Assembly (NCBI GenBank): GCA_016844585.1
Contig: JAERMM010000003.1
Location: 1 to 34,262, forward strand
DNA from: Chloroflexota bacterium
Lineage (GTDB): Bacteria > Chloroflexota > UBA6077 > SHYK01
DNA: 34,262 bases
Direction of reading: 5' to 3'
Positions 1 to 28,520 of the stretch are shown piece by piece (the stretch's first letter is position 1; each line of letters begins with the position of its first letter). The position numbers were made by a program, and so were the translations under genes. Below the pieces are notes generated by a model that made no database searches, had not been told where the DNA came from, and saw only the letters and a list, made by a program, of their open reading frames with translations.

Positions 1-2262
1 CCAACACCGCCTATGCCGTTCCCATCTGCAGCCGGTATTCGCATGCACGCATCGTATCCATCGATTGTTCGCGTGCAGAGCAGTTGGCCGGCGTTCGCGC
101 TATCCTGACCCGAGACCAGCTGCCCGAGTACGACCTCAACCTCGAACCAAGACCCGGCGACCAGCGATTCATTGTCACCGACAAGGTGCGTTTCGACGGT
201 GATCTCATCGGTATGGTGGCGGCCGACGATTTGCGCACAGCGCGCCGCGCCGCCGATCTGGTCGACGTCGAGTACGAGCCGCTGGCGCCCATCTTCTCGG
301 TTGAGGATGCGCGCTCGCCCGGCGCGCCGCTGCTCCACGAGGATCTTGGAACGAACTTTGTTCTCGCGGACACCCTGGAGTGGGGCGACGTCGAGCGTGG
401 ATTCGCGGAGTCGGACCACATCTTCGAAGAGGAGTACGTATCGCAGAACGTCTACCAGCACCCGATCGAGCCGGCGACCACCTACCTGGTGCAGTTTGAC
501 GACGATGGGCTGAACTTCTGGATACCTATGGCCGGTCCGTTCCATCTGGCCGCGGAGGCCGCTCGGCTCTTCCGCATCGACCCGAAGCAGGTACGCGTTC
601 GCGTGCCGTGGGTAGGGGGGAATTTCGGGGCAAAGGAAGGCGGGCCGGATGCGATGGTCGCGGCGGCCCTCGCGCGCAAGCTGGGCCGACCCATACGCGT
701 CACGGCCTCCTGGGATCAGAGCTTCAGATCTTCAGCTCGCCACGCAATGATCTACCGGGCGAAGATCGGGGCCCGGTCCGACGGCACGCTGCAGGCCCTC
801 GACGTCCAGATCCTGGTGGACGCGGGGGCCTACCTGACGCGTACCTGGTTTGCCACGCAGAACGCGGTGAGCTCAGCCTGGGGAGGTTATCGGATTCCTC
901 ACGTCAGGGTGCGCGGCGACGCCTTTTACACGAATAAAGTGCCCGCTGGGACGTTTCGAAACACCGGCAAGAACCAGACTACCTTCTCGATCGAGTGCGC
1001 CATGGACAATGTCGCGCGCCAGCTAGGCATTGAGCCTGTGGAGTTCCGCCAGAAGAACCTGCTCGTCGAGGGTGAGATCATGGCGCCGGAGCGCTGGATC
1101 CGGCATTTCAAGGAGGCGCCGTCTGAGAATGTGCCGCTGGACACGAACTTGATGGGCTTGATGCAGGCCGCCGCTAACGGCATTGGGTGGGACGGGCGCT
1201 CTTCATCAGGGCAGTCGGGAGGACAGCCGGCCCCGCGCAAGGGCATCAGGGCAGACGGGAGGACAGCCGGCCCCGCGCAAGGGCGTGGCGCGCGGCAGAG
1301 GGATGGCTGTTTCACTCCGTCGTGGCGCGTCCATCGGCGACGCAAGCGCGAGAGCCACGGTTTGCCAGGATGGCACGGTTACCATCAGCCACAACGCGCC
1401 GGACGTGGGCGAGGGCGCGCACACCATGATCAGTATCGTCGCCGCCCGAACGCTTGGCCTCAGCCGAGAGGCGGTTCGCGTCGAGGCGCCGGATACGTCC
1501 AATGAGCTGCATTTCACCGGGACCAGCTCACAGCGGACGACCGTCCAGATGGGAAACGCCGTGCGCGCGGCGTGCGAGAACCTCATCCAGGAGCTGGTGG
1601 AAGCCGCATCAGAAGTCAAGGGAGGCGATCCCTCAGGGTGGCAGGTGATGGGCGGAGAGCTGCGTTCGGGCGGGAACGGTTATTCGTTTGCAGAGATCGT
1701 GAGCGCATTGCCAGGTGGCGCGCAGTTGACCGCAACAGGCCAGTACACGCGAACGCGATCCGGTGACACGTCTTTCGGTGGCCACGACCACTGGGCGCCC
1801 AGCGCGGCCGCCGCCGAGGTGGAGGTGGACTGCGAGACCGGTGAGGTCCGCGTACTGCGGTACGCCATTGCAGCGGACGCTGGGAGAGCGCTTCACCGCA
1901 ACTCCGCCAAGGGACAAATCGAGGGAGGAGCGGTGATGGGCTTCGGGCTCGCCCTGTTTGAGGAGGTTGCTTACGACGAGGGCCAGCTCCTCAACGCCGA
2001 CGCGTTCCAGTATCGGCTGCCTCTCATGAGGGACATACCGAACATTCTTTCCAGCTCGATGGTGGAAAACGGCGATGGGCCAGGCCCGTTTGGGGCCAAG
2101 GGCCTCGCTCAGGTCGGGATCCCCGGCCCGGCTCCGGCCATCGGCAATGCCATCTACGACGCTATCGGCGTGCGGTTGAGGTCCACTCCCTTTACCCCCG
2201 AGAAAGTGCTTCGGGCCCTGCGCGGAGGCGACCGTCGCGTGGAACCAACAGCGGCTGGGTAA
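1..2262 (+). pseudogene. Xanthine dehydrogenase/aldehyde oxidase-family molybdopterin-binding subunit; 5' end truncated by the window, interrupted by a frameshift near 1204-1283
   Basis: The frame of ORF 84-1505 is open back to the window start (NTAYAVPICSRYSHARIVSIDCSRAEQLAGVRAILT, matching the paralog at 20075). Motif VPWVGGNFGAKEGG; continues in another frame as ORF 1183-2262 (GAHTMISIVAARTLGLS...GPFGAKGLAQ...NAIYDAIGV). Confidence 0.85.
1204..1283 (+). repeat. 40-bp tandem direct repeat, 2 copies (1204-1243, 1244-1283), one mismatch
   Basis: catcagggcag[t/a]cgggaggacagccggccccgcgcaaggg read twice in direct succession. Confidence 0.97.
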
Positions 2263-3412
2263 CGGTCCACTGCTTCATCGACCGGCCCTCAGCCAGGGCT
2301 CGGAGCTCGCCAACCCAGATCTTGCGGAGCAGGATGATGCCTACGTCCGAGCTGCCGAGATGTTCGTGTTCTCGATCCGCTATGACGCCCTGCCCGGTGA
2401 GGACCGTGAAGTCCTGCACGCTGCTGGTGTCCCATTTGCGGATCTTGTGGATGTCGTTGCTCCGGATCTTGCCGGCGAGTACATCGCGAGCCACATCCTC
2501 CATCGGGATGCTTTCCTGCTCGGCTTCGACCTGGCGCCGCCAGTCGAGGTACTTTCCCACCGCCTCGCCGGTCACGTTCACGCGTTGGGCGCCGAGAACG
2601 AGATGACTGCTATCGTCCACCGGAATACGCCACATGAACTTATGCCGGGTTCGCTCGGCCTCGATATGAGGCGCTGGGCTGCTGCCCGGGAAGTAGCTCA
2701 TGTTTGGCATGTAGAAGCGAATGCCCTTGGCCTCATAGCCGTAGTCGGTCTCGTGGCCGTCGATCTCGAGTGGGATCGGGGTCCCATGGTGATGGTGGAC
2801 GAAGGGGACGTGGACCGAGTCCGGCGCGTTCTCGATCCGGTTGAAGTAGTTGATCGGCCAGTCTTCGTGCCAATTCTCGATCAGACAGTCGTGCTCGAGC
2901 TCGGGGATACGGGGAACTGGCGGCGGCTCGCCCTCTCCAAGATAGGCAAAGATAAGACCGATGTATTCACGAATCGGGTAGCTCTCGACGCGGATCTTTT
3001 GACAAAACGGCTCCCGCTCACCGGGCTGTTCGATGCACTGGCCGGAGGCATCGTATTTCCAGCCGTGGTAGTAGCAGCGGAGGCTGTCACCCTCGACCCA
3101 GCCGGCCGAGAGCTGCGTGCCGCGATGAGCACAGCGGAAGGCCAGGAGATGGGCGTGGGGCTCGCTTTCGGCTGAGGCGGACTCCTCGCTCCGATAGAGA
3201 GTGAAGTCTTCGCTCATGACACGTATTGGCTTGGTTCGCCCGGGCCCGAGATCCTCTGATCGGCAGACCGGCTGCCAGAACATTCGAAGGTAGCGCCCGG
3301 CGAGGGTACCCGGGCCGGTATGGACGAAGTCCGTCCAGTCGTCTTTGGTGTACCGCCTCGTGGACCCATTGGCCTGGCGCACGCTGGATCTGGCTACGCT
3401 CGCTGCCATCAT
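2192..3412 (-). CDS. Rieske 2Fe-2S aromatic ring-hydroxylating oxygenase alpha subunit
   Basis: Rieske motif CAHRGTQ...CYYHGW; mononuclear iron motif DSVHVPFVHH; SD-like GAGGGGA before ATG. Confidence 0.92.
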   Translation of the reverse strand: MMAASVARSSVRQANGSTRRYTKDDWTDFVHTGPGTLAGRYLRMFWQPVCRSEDLGPGRTKPIRVMSEDFTLYRSEESASAESEPHAHLLAFRCAHRGTQLSAGWVEGDSLRCYYHGWKYDASGQCIEQPGEREPFCQKIRVESYPIREYIGLIFAYLGEGEPPPVPRIPELEHDCLIENWHEDWPINYFNRIENAPDSVHVPFVHHHHGTPIPLEIDGHETDYGYEAKGIRFYMPNMSYFPGSSPAPHIEAERTRHKFMWRIPVDDSSHLVLGAQRVNVTGEAVGKYLDWRRQVEAEQESIPMEDVARDVLAGKIRSNDIHKIRKWDTSSVQDFTVLTGQGVIADREHEHLGSSDVGIILLRKIWVGELRALAEGRSMKQWTVTQPLLVPRDGRLRAGPEALSRG

Positions 3413-3480
3413 TCCCCTCCTATCGATCGACGAATTGCCACTGAAGCTCTAACCGCTCGACCCGGGGCCGACGGCATATA

Positions 3481-4659
3481 TCAAGCCCAGCGGGACCTGG
3501 GCGCCGCCCCTTTGAGGTACGTCGATTCCGGCATGGTGAACTCGACCCCTTTGGCTCGGAGCGCTTCCTGATAGCGTTTTCGGATCTCCGGATCCTCGTC
3601 GGAATAGCTGATCAGCGTGCCGCCCTCGTTCATGTCCACCATGCTGAAGTGGCCTTCTTGCGCATCGGAGGCCATACGAAGCGAGAGCGGGTCGAAGTCC
3701 GGCCCTCCTCCACCGTGGAAGGCAAGGTGCCTGGCCGGCTCGGGGCCAGTATTGAAATGCTGGTGATACCAGTCGCTGGGCGGCGTGTAAACACTGCCAC
3801 GTCCCCAGGGCACTTGCACTACTTCGTCCCCGCGACCGATCTCGTACGGCCGCGACCCCAGCTCCTTCGGCCATAGCAACACGTACCCCTCGGATCGAAG
3901 CCCGAGGAGCAGCGCGCCAGCGTGATGATAGTGGCCCATGCGGTAGCGTCCGACCGGCCACTGCGCGATCCGCCCCGCCCAGTTGTTGCCGGACATCTCG
4001 AACATCGCACCGAGGACGCCGCTCCCGTGGCGCTCGTCCCCCTCATCGAGGTCCTCCTCGAACACGCTGGGGACAAAGTTCGTCACCCAGTGGCGTCCGT
4101 CGGTAACAGAATGCTTCGTAGGGACGAAATACGACTGACGGCCATCATAACGATCACGGAATGTGTATGGACAATTGAAGATGAAGTCCAGGTTGTGAAA
4201 CCCGTTGATCATCCTCGGCGCGTCCGACGTGGCCAGGAAACGCACTGGCTCGCTGCCGTGGTTGTACAGACGGTGCCAGGTATTGAGAGGGGGGGAGAAG
4301 ATGCTGCCGCGGCCCCACTCGAAGACGTGCTTCGTCGTGTCGCCCTCTTGCCAGATCTCTGTCGCCCCGTGGCCCTCCAGGATCATGACGAACTTCTCGA
4401 AGAGGTGCTTCAGTGGCTCCGTTGAGCCTCCGGGGGCGATCTCTGCCACGTAGACCTCGCGGAGGCCCTCCATGAAGGGGTATAGGTTGATGAACAGCGC
4501 CTTGCCGCCGAGTCGCGGCCACGGTGCGAGGTCGACGCGCCAGACATCGTCTACCCCGAAACCCTCTACGGTCGCTACCCCTTCATCTCTCAGCCATTCG
4601 CCATAGGGCGTCTTCGCAAATGTTTTTTTGATCGAGCGCACGTAGCCATCTAGCAGCAC
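3481..4659 (-). CDS. Cupin-domain protein (bicupin-like; resembles proteins annotated as ethanolamine ammonia-lyase-activating protein)
   Basis: Two cupin-like segments (EIWQEGDTTKHVFEWGRGSIFSPPLNTWHRLYNHG; GDEVVQVPWGRGSVYTPPSDWYHQHFNTGPEPARHLAFH); probable GTG start. Confidence 0.75.
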   Translation of the reverse strand: MLLDGYVRSIKKTFAKTPYGEWLRDEGVATVEGFGVDDVWRVDLAPWPRLGGKALFINLYPFMEGLREVYVAEIAPGGSTEPLKHLFEKFVMILEGHGATEIWQEGDTTKHVFEWGRGSIFSPPLNTWHRLYNHGSEPVRFLATSDAPRMINGFHNLDFIFNCPYTFRDRYDGRQSYFVPTKHSVTDGRHWVTNFVPSVFEEDLDEGDERHGSGVLGAMFEMSGNNWAGRIAQWPVGRYRMGHYHHAGALLLGLRSEGYVLLWPKELGSRPYEIGRGDEVVQVPWGRGSVYTPPSDWYHQHFNTGPEPARHLAFHGGGGPDFDPLSLRMASDAQEGHFSMVDMNEGGTLISYSDEDPEIRKRYQEALRAKGVEFTMPESTYLKGAAPRSRWA

Positions 4660-4677
4660 GCTGCCTGCCCCTCGACG

Positions 4678-5628
4678 TCAAACGGCACCTACGGGCTCCA
4701 TCTGCGGCCGATACCTGGCACACAGCTCCTGCCACTGGGTGGCCTTCCGCCTGGCCGCCTCTTCGACGCCAGGCGGGTCCACGAGGAACGGTGGTCGGTT
4801 TGGACCGGGATCACAATAGCCGGCGTATTTCATAGCGAGTTTCATGCCACCACCCTCGACGGGCGGTCCACCGCTTCCGCCGGGGATCTGCGCGGCCAAC
4901 TCCCTCGCAGTCTCGACGTCTCCCTCCTGGACCGCGCGCCAGAGCCGCAGCAACGGCCAGGGGCCCATCCATGCGTCGATCGACCAGCAGCCAGCGGCGC
5001 CCAATTGCCCGTATGGATAGATCTGCGATTGAGCTACAAAGACCCTCATCTTCCCACGGACCACGTCCATCAGCTTCATGAACTCCTGCGTCGTGCGGTG
5101 GCTGTCCTTCATGCCGATGATGTTGGGGCTCTGGGTAATCTTGCGGAAGGCGCTCACGGGGATGTGGACTCGATGGTTCAGTGGGTTGTGGTAGATCATG
5201 ATGGACAGGTCCGGGAACGCCTCGGCGATGCCGTTGTAGAAGCGAATGACGTTGTCGACACTCAGCGAGAAATAGTAGGGAACGCCAACCAGGACCCCCT
5301 CCCCGCCGGCATCGCGGACGATCCGCATCTTCTGGATCGTCTCACGCGTATGAACAGAGGTGCAACCGAGGAATAGGGGCACCCGCTGGTTCACCGCCTC
5401 GATCGCCGCGCGGGCGAGCGTCTCGAACTCGTTCAGCAACAGCGTGTGGCACTCGCCGGACGTCGCCGTCGTGCACATGACGTGAATGCCATCCTGGATG
5501 ATGCGGTTGACACCGGCCCGAAGGTGATCCACGTGGATGGTCGATGTGGAGAGAATGTCGCCTGCGTTCTCGGTCGCGAACGCCGGCATCATCACGTTCA
5601 CGCCGTGCAGGTCCTCAGTCGTATACAT
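4678..5628 (-). CDS. Dihydrodipicolinate synthase (DapA)/N-acetylneuraminate lyase family aldolase
   Basis: GVPYYF, YHNP and Schiff-base Lys context NIIGMKDS. Confidence 0.87.
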   Translation of the reverse strand: MYTTEDLHGVNVMMPAFATENAGDILSTSTIHVDHLRAGVNRIIQDGIHVMCTTATSGECHTLLLNEFETLARAAIEAVNQRVPLFLGCTSVHTRETIQKMRIVRDAGGEGVLVGVPYYFSLSVDNVIRFYNGIAEAFPDLSIMIYHNPLNHRVHIPVSAFRKITQSPNIIGMKDSHRTTQEFMKLMDVVRGKMRVFVAQSQIYPYGQLGAAGCWSIDAWMGPWPLLRLWRAVQEGDVETARELAAQIPGGSGGPPVEGGGMKLAMKYAGYCDPGPNRPPFLVDPPGVEEAARRKATQWQELCARYRPQMEPVGAV

Positions 5629-5739
5629 TTTTTAGAGCTCCTCCTCTGAGTACAGCTCCAGTGCGGCCAGCGTCGGCCAGTCGGTAACGGAAAACAGGAT
5701 CACTTCTCATGAATATGGCCATTCGCAGGGACCATTGTC

Positions 5740-5775
5740 CCTCTCCCATCGCAGTGGGAGAGGTTAGGTGAGGGC
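5740..5775. repeat. Dispersed hairpin repeat, copy 1 (CCTCTCCCA-N6-TGGGAGAGG followed by ttaggtgagggc)
   Basis: Perfect 9-bp stem; near-identical second copy at 19999-20034. Confidence 0.8.
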
Positions 5776-6223
5776 GACCCACAACGACCCCGCCTCCGCG
5801 CTTCCTCCCCGTTCGTCGTTGGGGCCACTGTAATCGGCGTGGATCACGCCGTCAACTGGCTAGCATGGCCCGTGTTGGCGCCGCCACCTTACGATGCCAG
5901 CGCGCGTTCGTCGGATGCCCGCTTGGCCGCGCGCTACAATGGCTGCCAGCTATCTCGAGGAGGATAGCTCGGCGGCCAGCTGCTAACCGCGACCGGGGGC
6001 CAGAGTTTAGCCGGAGCGAAAAGATCAACGCGTGCGTCGTGTGCTTGAACATCAGCTGCGCCTCTCGCGGTTCGCCCGCGCTTTACGAAGGGCTCAAAGA
6101 TCGCTTCGCCGCCGCCGTCAGCGCTGCTGCCTGCTGAGGAGGACATCGAGTGCGCTCTCATTGCCAGCCCCCGCGATCGGCCCCGACGGCGGCGGGTGCT
6201 TTAGGCCCTGCGCGGATGCAACC

Positions 6224-7474
6224 GTGCTGACACGTGAGGAGAACGAGCGCCTGACGATCGTCGGACCACACACCCCAGGTGGCGAGCTGCTTCGCCGCTA
6301 CTGGCAACCAGCAGCCCTGTCGGAGGAGCTCCCGCCCGGTGGAGCGCCACTCCCGGTGCGCCTCTTGTGCGAAGACCTCGTGCTCTTCCGTGACGAGCAT
6401 GGCCAGCCAGGCCTGCTCGGCATCCACTGCGCCCACCGCGGCGCTGATCTGAGCTATGGCCGCGTCGAGGATGCCGGCCTCCGCTGCATCTACCATGGCT
6501 GGCTCTACGATATTCACGGGCGATGCCTGGAGCAGCCCGGCGAGCCAGCAGGAAGTACCTTCCACGAGCGGGTGCGCCACCTCGCTTACCCATGTCAGGA
6601 GGTGGGCGGCCTGATTCTCGCCTACCTCGGACCAGGCACACCTCCGCTCGTGCCAGCCTACGAGTTCCTGCAGGCGCCTGTTGAGCGGCGGTTCAACACC
6701 AAGATCTACCAGGAGTGCAGCTACCTTCAGGCGAACGAGGGTAACACGGACTCGGTGCACGTTCCGTTTCTGCATCGCGTGGCTGGCCGCTGGGGTCCGT
6801 CTCCATCCTCGGCCACCAGGCGGATTGAAATGGTGATGGAGCCTGAGGAAACCGAGTTCGGCGTTCGTGTTCTTCGGATGGAGCCGCGCACCGACGACAC
6901 CGTGCAGACCAACATCGGCAATTTCATCATGCCCAACCTGAGCGCCATCCCCGCCGGACGAAGAGACGGCTACGAGGCCGTCTGGCACGTGCCGATCGAT
7001 GATGAGAGCCACTGGAAGTACGCTGTCCAGTTCAACCGCTCGCAGCCCATGGATCGGGAGCGTGAGGGCGACCACCGGGCCGAGATGACCGCGGACTACC
7101 GGCTGCTGCGAAACCGCGCGAACCGCTATCTGCAGGACCGTGAGGAGATGAAAGGGCAAGCCTTCGCAGGTTTGGGAAATTGCTTCCAGACGCAGGACGC
7201 CTGCGCGACAGAGGGCCAGGGCGCGATCCAGGACCGAACCCAGGAGCACCTGGGTTCTACCGACCGTGCCATACTCCTCATCCGGACGATGCTCCTGCGT
7301 GCCATCGGCGACGTGCAGGCAGGGCGCGAAGCGCCTCACGTGGTGCGCGACCCCGCGGCGAACCACTTTCCGAATCTGCTGGTTTGGACGGAACGGGTCC
7401 CGGCGTCAACGGACTGGCGCGCCCACCTGCGCGCGAAGATCGCAGCTTGCGAGGCGCAAGTCGATCCGGGATAG
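6224..7474 (+). CDS. Rieske 2Fe-2S aromatic ring-hydroxylating oxygenase alpha subunit (second copy)
   Basis: CAHRGADLSYGRVEDAGLRCIYHGW; NTDSVHVPFLH; GTG start at 6224 chosen because MLTREENERLTIVGPHTPGG is a typical N-terminus. Confidence 0.9.
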   Translation: MLTREENERLTIVGPHTPGGELLRRYWQPAALSEELPPGGAPLPVRLLCEDLVLFRDEHGQPGLLGIHCAHRGADLSYGRVEDAGLRCIYHGWLYDIHGRCLEQPGEPAGSTFHERVRHLAYPCQEVGGLILAYLGPGTPPLVPAYEFLQAPVERRFNTKIYQECSYLQANEGNTDSVHVPFLHRVAGRWGPSPSSATRRIEMVMEPEETEFGVRVLRMEPRTDDTVQTNIGNFIMPNLSAIPAGRRDGYEAVWHVPIDDESHWKYAVQFNRSQPMDREREGDHRAEMTADYRLLRNRANRYLQDREEMKGQAFAGLGNCFQTQDACATEGQGAIQDRTQEHLGSTDRAILLIRTMLLRAIGDVQAGREAPHVVRDPAANHFPNLLVWTERVPASTDWRAHLRAKIAACEAQVDPG

Positions 7475-11869: not shown

Positions 11870-12386
11870 TTGCCGCGCCTTCCAGGTGAAGCGAGAGTCG
11901 CAAGACGTGGTGCAGCTCGTCGCCGCCTACCTCCATTTCGTCCACAAGGTTCTTGATGAGGAACAGCCCCCAACCTCGGGGACGATCCAATTCTGCGAGT
12001 TTGGCCTCCAGATCCGGGGTTGTCACGTCCGGGATCGGTCGGTGGCCGCCCTGATCGACGATTTGCACGGTGAGTCGCCCTTCTGATGCCAGCACCTGTA
12101 TCTCGACCGGCAGCTCTGCCCGGTTCTGGTTGCCGTGCTCGATTGCGTTCATCGTCGCCTCTGCCACGGCGGTCCCCAGCCGCTTGATGGTGCGCTGTGG
12201 CAATGCCAGCTCCTGTACGGCGTCGGTTACCTGCTGCATCGCGAGGCGCTCATTGCCAGGCTCGCTGGAGATGCTGAAATGGGCGAGTACCCGCTCTTCT
12301 CCCTTTGGCGCTGCATCGCCGCCTTCCACCTGACGCATCGCTCCCCCCGCCTGCTCGTGACTGCCGTCATAGTCGGCCTGACGCAT
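11856..12386 (-). CDS. RsbW-like ATP-binding anti-sigma regulatory kinase
   Basis: AVAEATMNAIEHGN (N-box), IVDQG, RGWGLFLIKNLVDEMEV; start uncertain because two in-frame ATGs lie in the 48-bp repeat. Confidence 0.87.
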   Translation of the reverse strand: MRQADYDGSHEQAGGAMRQVEGGDAAPKGEERVLAHFSISSEPGNERLAMQQVTDAVQELALPQRTIKRLGTAVAEATMNAIEHGNQNRAELPVEIQVLASEGRLTVQIVDQGGHRPIPDVTTPDLEAKLAELDRPRGWGLFLIKNLVDEMEVGGDELHHVLRLSLHLEGAASDGQ

Positions 12387-12424
12387 CGTTCACCCCACCC
12401 GCTCGTGACTGCCGTCATAGTCGG
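12329..12424 (-). repeat. 48-bp tandem direct repeat, 2 copies (12329-12376, 12377-12424), 4 mismatches
   Basis: cctgacgcatcg...gctcgtgactgccgtcatagtcgg repeated; spans the phosphatase stop/HATPase start junction. Confidence 0.95.
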
Positions 12425-19877: not shown

Positions 19878-19998
19878 CGTCGACCCCCCTTAGCTCCCCT
19901 CAGTCCTCAGTCCTCAGTGGGGAGGGCACCAGTTTACGCCGATCCGCCAATTGCGGCCTTCCGACCCGCCGCATATACTCGGCCAATCCACATCTACT

Positions 19999-27183: not shown

Positions 27184-28395
27184 CTACGACTCCAACTCGA
27201 AGGCGTCGTGCAGGGCCTGGACCGCCTCGGGGACTCGGGTGGCGTCGATCACGCAGGTGATGCGGATGTCGGAGGTGGTGATCATGTCGATGTTCACGCC
27301 GCGCTCGGCCATCGTGCTGAACATGAGCGCTGCATCCCCTGGCGTGCTTTGAAGCCCGGTCCCGACGATCGACACTTTCGCCAGGTTCGAGGCGCTCTCG
27401 ACTCGACCGCTTAGCTCTTGCCCTACCCGATTCGTGATCTCCAACGCCGAGCCAAAGTCAGCGCGCGATACGGTGAACGAGATCTCCGCGAGTCCTTCGA
27501 TGCTGGACGCCTGGATGATGACGTCCACATTGATGCCGGCCTCGGCCAGTGGCGCGAATATGGAGCGCGCGATGCCCGGTCGGTCTGGGATGCCTGCCAC
27601 GGTGATCTTGGCTACGTCGGTGTCGTGGGCGATGCCGCGCACTCGCTTGCGGGTTTCCATGGCCCCTCCTCGATGAATCAATGTGCCAGGCCGCTCGTGG
27701 AAGCTGGATCGTACCTCGATCGGCACCGAGTACAGCTCGCCCAACTCGACCGCGCGCGCGTGCACGACGCGCGCTCCGCGCTGCGCCAACTCGAGCATCT
27801 CTTCGTACGAGATCTCGGGAAGCAGTCGTGCGTTCGGCACCAGCCGTGGGTCGGCGGTGTAAACACCATCCACGTCCGTAAAAATCTCGCACCGAGGCGC
27901 CTCGAGCGCGCAGGCGAGCGCTACGGCCGAGGTATCTGAGCCGCCGCGGCCGAGCGTAGTAACGTCCCCTTCGTCGGTCACGCCCTGGAATCCGGTCACG
28001 ATGACACAGCGGCCGCGGTTCAGCTCTGCGTGAACGCGGTCCGTGTTTATGTCGACTATGAGCGCTCGTGAATGGGAGCGATCGGTCTGGATGCCAAGCT
28101 GCGGCCCGGTGAGCGACACCACAGGGCACTGCTGCGCGTCCAGCGCCATGGCGACCAGCGTCGCGGAGACGGTCTCGCCGGTCGAGAGGAGCATGTCCAT
28201 CTCGCGGCGGTCGGGTTCGGGGTTGACCGAGTGCGCCAGGGCGATCAGGTCGTCTGTGCTGTCGCCCATTGCGCTGACCACGACGACAACCTCGTTGCCC
28301 TCCGCGTGTTTGCGACGAATGCGGTCCGCCACTACCCGGATGCGCTCGGCATTCGCGAGCGAGCTGCCGCCGTATTTTTGCACGACGAGTGTCAC
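27184..28395 (-). CDS. lysC: Aspartate kinase
   Basis: VQKYGGSSLANAERIR; GFQGVTDEGDVTTLGRGGSDTSAVALA; two ACT domains; GTG start at 28395 (GTG ACA CTC GTC GTG CAA). Confidence 0.93.
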   Translation of the reverse strand: MTLVVQKYGGSSLANAERIRVVADRIRRKHAEGNEVVVVVSAMGDSTDDLIALAHSVNPEPDRREMDMLLSTGETVSATLVAMALDAQQCPVVSLTGPQLGIQTDRSHSRALIVDINTDRVHAELNRGRCVIVTGFQGVTDEGDVTTLGRGGSDTSAVALACALEAPRCEIFTDVDGVYTADPRLVPNARLLPEISYEEMLELAQRGARVVHARAVELGELYSVPIEVRSSFHERPGTLIHRGGAMETRKRVRGIAHDTDVAKITVAGIPDRPGIARSIFAPLAEAGINVDVIIQASSIEGLAEISFTVSRADFGSALEITNRVGQELSGRVESASNLAKVSIVGTGLQSTPGDAALMFSTMAERGVNIDMITTSDIRITCVIDATRVPEAVQALHDAFELES

Positions 28396-28403
28396 AGGGG
28401 ACG

Positions 28404-28520
28404 GGGGCCAGGGGCCAGGGGACGGGGCCCGGGGTACCGGGAGCAGTGATCCTCGCGTGGTGGCAGTTCCGCTAGCTCGGGCCTCATCTTGCTGTCCCCC
28501 GTCCCCTGGCTCCTGGCCCC
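28404..28520. repeat. G-rich inverted repeat, 24-nt arms 28404-28427 and 28497-28520, one mismatch
   Basis: ggggccaggggccaggggacgggg versus ccccgtcccctggctcctggcccc; the right arm codes for part of the thrB C-terminus. Confidence 0.9.

Follow-up and report, generated by a model that had tools for sequence, protein, structure and literature searches.

When the gene for a catalytic subunit is met as two overlapping open reading frames, has the enzyme been broken by a change in the cell's own DNA, divided into two working chains, placed under a reversible switch, or misspelled by an assembler? The question is posed by the first 2.2 kb of the DNA analysed here, a window of 34,262 bp that constitutes a complete contig (C136) of a draft Chloroflexota genome (3.85 Mb in 443 contigs, 80% complete, with 3.8% contamination).

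One gene in two reading frames

By sequence, the gene belongs among the large subunits of the xanthine-oxidase-family molybdenum hydroxylases. Matches to PF01315, PF02738 and PF20256 all lie well over their cut-offs and follow one another in the order of the family, spread across the two ORFs (Table 1), and the gene has its domain order and its GGxFG.K and FR..G motifs in common with 4-hydroxybenzoyl-CoA reductase alpha, XdhA and PaoC. Among the NCBIfam equivalogs none reaches its curated cut-off, the gene scoring far below each, and therefore no substrate can be named for it. The start of the contig cuts off the upstream side of the gene, and on the downstream side it is followed by convergent genes for Rieske, cupin and DHDPS-like proteins.

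As assembled, the two ORFs run from base 3 (or 84) to 1505 and from 1183 to 2262, so that the frames overlap at 1183-1505. The earlier note had given them as 84-1505 and 1183-2262, bounds that stand except for the TTG at 84, which is not the real start of the gene because the upstream frame remains open to base 3 and runs off the contig edge. Between the two frames lie two adjacent copies of a 40-bp stretch, identical at 39 of 40 positions and sharing a longest identical stretch of about 29 bp, which Tandem Repeats Finder reports at 1204-1283 with a period of 40, 2.0 copies and 97% matches. This is far more than chance would give. The repeat extends one base to the right and none to the left, and its unit length leaves a remainder of one when divided by three. 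If either copy is removed, a single open frame of 739 codons results, ending in a stop at 2260-2262; the products of the two one-copy versions differ solely in reading GQSGG or GQTGG.

Table 1. Features of the interrupted large-subunit gene, in window coordinates
Feature	Position	Strand	Evidence or remark
Upstream frame: Ald_Xan_dh_C (a/b hammerhead) and MoCoBD_1	3-1203	+	Pfam PF01315 (1.1e-21), PF02738 (1.2e-65); N-terminus cut by contig start
GGNFGAK motif	615-635	+	Upstream part of gene
FRNTGK motif	954-971	+	Upstream part of gene
Duplication, copy 1	1204-1243	+	Upstream frame encodes SGQSGGQPAPRKG
Duplication, copy 2 (A at 1255 for T at 1215)	1244-1283	+	Downstream frame encodes SGQTGGQPAPRKG
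Out-of-frame tail of 5' ORF, predicted aberrant C-terminus	1244-1505	+	Stop at 1503-1505
Downstream gene part, +1 frame: MoCoBD_2 through natural stop	1284-2262	+	Pfam PF20256 (4.3e-61); open to 2262
CAG (Gln) codon at catalytic-Glu position of the xanthine-oxidase family	2110-2112	+	Motif KGLAQ at 2098-2112; alignment to HcrA and NDH chains

No further stop or frameshift was seen in either half, so that over about 2.2 kb the duplication is the sole lesion, and third positions are coding-like on both sides of it (GC3 of 0.79 and 0.75; the wrong frames of the 3' half give 0.68 and 0.54). The geometry proposed in the earlier note was thus borne out: sequence comparison and Tandem Repeats Finder agree on two 40-bp copies with a one-base difference (1215 t / 1255 a), deletion of either copy does join the two ORFs, and reading frames, Pfam and uninterrupted homologues all support the claim that the extra copy exactly accounts for the broken frame of this Mo-hydroxylase gene.

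The junction in homologues and tandem repeats in genomes

The junction was compared with four paralogues from the same genome (two complete and two running off contig ends) and with homologues in four further genomes (G001, G002, G040 and G052). All of these homologues cross it in one continuous frame, and the repeat is absent from every paralogue and relative compared; a conserved two-copy arrangement in relatives, which the earlier note had raised against its own reading, occurs in none. The junction lies in the linker between the two molybdopterin-binding domains, which is poorly conserved in both length and sequence; homologues have the conserved motifs GW.. and RGRG separated here by some 3 to 22 residues. 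Since the homologues share one frame without the repeat, the duplication is private to this contig among the available sequences. Close homologues show 50-58% full-length identity. The genomes searched include no same-genus relative, their closest homologues being about 64% identical in protein. A search of the genome bin for a one-copy version of the locus returned the locus itself as its sole match.

How unusual is such a repeat? Two-copy tandems of 18-250 bp with an identity of 90% or more were counted, and the approximately 0.74 Mb sampled of this genome yielded 12, six of them at least 30 bp long; only the tandem at 1204-1283 splits a gene of confirmed identity. For the most part, tandems inside ORFs of this genome keep the frame (lengths in multiples of three), the pattern that selection would leave among real duplications, and a systematic artefact generating many tandems of random length was rejected on these grounds. 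Samples of 0.4 Mb were taken from each of two finished, single-contig genomes. One of these, from the same phylum (G049), contained 24 tandems, including near-perfect frame-splitting ones (period 98, 97/98; period 47, 44/47), and the other (G033) contained three, all in frame. Frame-breaking duplications of this type therefore occur in finished genomes and are not exotic.

Other repeats in the genome deserve mention in their own right. An older 48-bp tandem (44/48) at 12329-12424 of the window spans, on the minus strand, the stop of a PP2C-type phosphatase gene and the start of an anti-sigma-type ATPase gene; in the second copy the stop TGA is replaced by GGA, which extends the ATPase in frame at its N-terminus (MRQADYDGSHEQAGGA-MRQ...). 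This duplication is too diverged for a simple contig-join artefact. On another contig (L124, near 1373) a perfect 85-bp tandem (85/85) splits an open frame, leaving 235 codons where the one-copy version has 308. Tandem heptamers also recur, of the types CCTCAGT, CAGGGGC/ACAGGGG, GATAGGG and ACTCAGC, at 19898-19918 and 28395-28434 of the window and on three further stretches (L060 near 3985, L116 near 2944 and L134 near 2471). They are reminiscent of the STRR repeats of cyanobacteria.

Lesion, assembly join or divided enzyme

The explanation that we favour, with some reserve, is a derived +1 frameshift caused by duplication of a 40-bp stretch in a tolerant linker. The gene would have been, or in other cells would remain, one continuous reading frame, within which a head-to-tail copy of a single linker stretch arose, probably when a strand slipped or the template was switched in replication. 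A unit of 40 bases does not fit the triplet frame, so ribosomes that had read copy 1 would continue out of frame, add about 87 aberrant residues and terminate at 1505. MoCoBD_2, with its active-site loop, would be missing from the protein that carries the upstream domains, presumably at the cost of enzyme function. The lesion is probably recent, since the gene shows no other over about 2.2 kb and is otherwise intact and coding-like. Against slippage stands the single base of microhomology found at the ends of the duplication, slippage usually making use of microhomology. Furthermore, if the one difference in 40 is read as neutral divergence after the event, an estimated 27.75 substitutions would be predicted, 3.1% of them nonsense, or about 0.9 nonsense changes elsewhere in the gene; none was seen, which is weak counter-evidence given that the estimate is built on one mismatch. 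Likenesses can be found in the pneumococcal duplications of cap3A, cap8E/tts and wchA, which, as cited in PMC4022640, are likewise short, head to tail, inside an ORF and disruptive. Unlike those cases, the present one comes from one genome, has copies that differ by one base and affects a metabolic molybdoenzyme.

The fragmentation of the 443-contig draft counts against a duplication in the DNA of the cell and brings in its most serious competitor, a false tandem created where contig ends or strain haplotypes overlapping by 40 bp, with one SNP, were joined unmerged, the real gene being one-copy and intact. The intact remainder of the gene would fit such a join, as would the fact that the 0.74 Mb sampled contains no other confirmed frame break of this kind. 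The earlier note had held that the one-base difference argues somewhat against a simple collapse or expansion error; that argument is weak, since a strain SNP would produce the same picture if it lay in an overlap that the assembly k-mer exceeds in length. Several observations nevertheless weigh against a join: even a short read is far longer than the 40-bp unit, and the copies share an identical stretch of only about 29 bp, so that the repeat alone does not tangle an assembly graph; random-length false tandems are uncommon in this assembly, where ORF tandems mostly come in multiples of three; and the bin holds no one-copy version of the locus. A literature search on duplications as misassemblies in metagenome-assembled genomes found nothing direct. 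We regard an assembly artefact as a sizeable minority possibility, and a real duplication, with the small shares due to gene fission and to switching included, as the rather probable state of the cell's DNA.

Could both ORFs instead be translated as separate subunits, the gene having undergone a functional fission at the natural boundary between its molybdopterin domains? Nicotinate dehydrogenase (NDH) provides the model, and the solved structures point to it from both sides: the 5' ORF is matched best by 3hrd chain A, the large molybdopterin subunit (2.8e-45), and the 3' ORF by chain B, the medium molybdopterin subunit (1.3e-40), with in-frame starts at GTG 1285 and ATG 1303 just ahead of MoCoBD_2. 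In that enzyme the two Mo-binding regions are carried on separate chains whose boundary is the linker disrupted here, so the break falls where a split is structurally tolerable. NDH is, however, a genuine split pair with Glu in the aligned motif, whereas the split here is made by a frameshift that would leave the 5' product with an aberrant tail of about 87 residues, its stop at 1505 lying 200 bases inside the 3' ORF. By eye, no well-placed ribosome-binding site precedes 1183, 1285 or 1303; no promoter-like site is present, and the closest relatives are fused. Because of the aberrant tail and the want of a convincing ribosome-binding site, functional fission is unlikely, and we accord it only a very small chance.

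Smaller again is the chance of a phase-variable contingency locus, in which the duplication would be gained and lost at high frequency, so that the enzyme toggles between off and on. In principle, a pair of near-identical direct copies can recombine or slip back precisely to one, and spontaneous duplications in pneumococcal capsule genes (Waite 2001 and 2003, cited in PMC4022640) offer precedents. The unit here is nevertheless long and present in just two copies, reversion would leave either of two alleles given the one-base difference, no relative carries a repeat at the site, and the gene encodes a metabolic enzyme, neither a surface nor a capsule function. Programmed +1 ribosomal frameshifting across the duplication, which would restore the full protein and for which the long overlap of frames at 1183-1505 might speak, is rejected as exceedingly improbable: inspection by eye showed neither a slippery nor a pause signal, no relative conserves the arrangement, and the duplication fully explains the change of frame.

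Of the three causes that the earlier note had offered, inactivating duplication and assembly error thus both remain, while phase variation is without positive support. Whether lesion or assembly error, the duplication is of an ordinary kind. In annotation the locus is best carried as one interrupted gene, and as two proteins or a switch only on the evidence of reads.

A clade with glutamine in place of the catalytic glutamate

Hydroxylases of the xanthine-oxidase family have a catalytic Glu. At the corresponding position (residue 726 of HcrA by counting along the alignment, and the position of E1265 in mouse AOX1) the interrupted gene encodes Gln, and the same is true of its whole clade: Gln occupies the position in all nine distinct complete members (9/9), with Asn in one broken relative. 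Outside the clade, 45 of 47 loci have Glu and the other two Asp. The Gln sequences are monophyletic with a support of 1.0 in a tree of 13 tips, several of which are the same place fetched twice (the Gln-bearing loci are the window, L003-L006, L022, L058-L060 and L063-L067). Members of the clade turned up in 5 of the 400 phylum genomes searched, and at the search threshold this genome has four of the loci. The broken relative (L068, from G001) has a lesion of its own away from the junction, a one-base frameshift in 3380-3460, just past the conserved VTISH motif.

Clade members retain the cofactor motifs; at least one genome also encodes partner subunits, and one has several paralogues. In a Chloroflexi MAG locus (L022, corresponding to G040) the gene row reads cupin, large subunit, FAD subunit and [2Fe-2S] subunit; this relative thus has the canonical partner genes. 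In both that locus (stretch 1748-6694) and L063 (stretch 4810-5943) the gene immediately upstream of the large subunit of the Gln clade encodes a cupin domain, and the window has its own cupin gene (stretch 3481-4659), beside the Rieske gene and the DHDPS-like gene. The recurrence of cupin genes near these large subunits, together with the cupin, Rieske and DHDPS-like set of the window, suggests a shared pathway, perhaps one acting on aromatic compounds.

In mouse AOX1 the E1265Q substitution abolishes activity while the cofactor is still bound (PMC2671166). Since Gln is clade-wide and this substitution inactivates AOX1, the gene is best described as a member of the superfamily by descent, for which canonical hydroxylase activity cannot be assumed. 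Furthermore, because the AOX1 variant loses activity with its cofactor in place, the clade may do something other than standard hydroxylation, or may use another base. A search of the literature for natural Glu-to-Gln variants of the xanthine-oxidase family found nothing direct. Our tentative picture, which we hold as conjecture, is of a small clade in this phylum that lost the catalytic Glu and kept its cofactor motifs, adopting a different reaction or proton-transfer scheme, with the copy in the window a dispensable paralogue in the course of being lost.

The Gln clade is a more interesting lead than the duplication through which it came to light: a clade-wide change from Glu to Gln, at a residue regarded as essential for hydroxylation, would be a testable exception to the accepted mechanism of the family.
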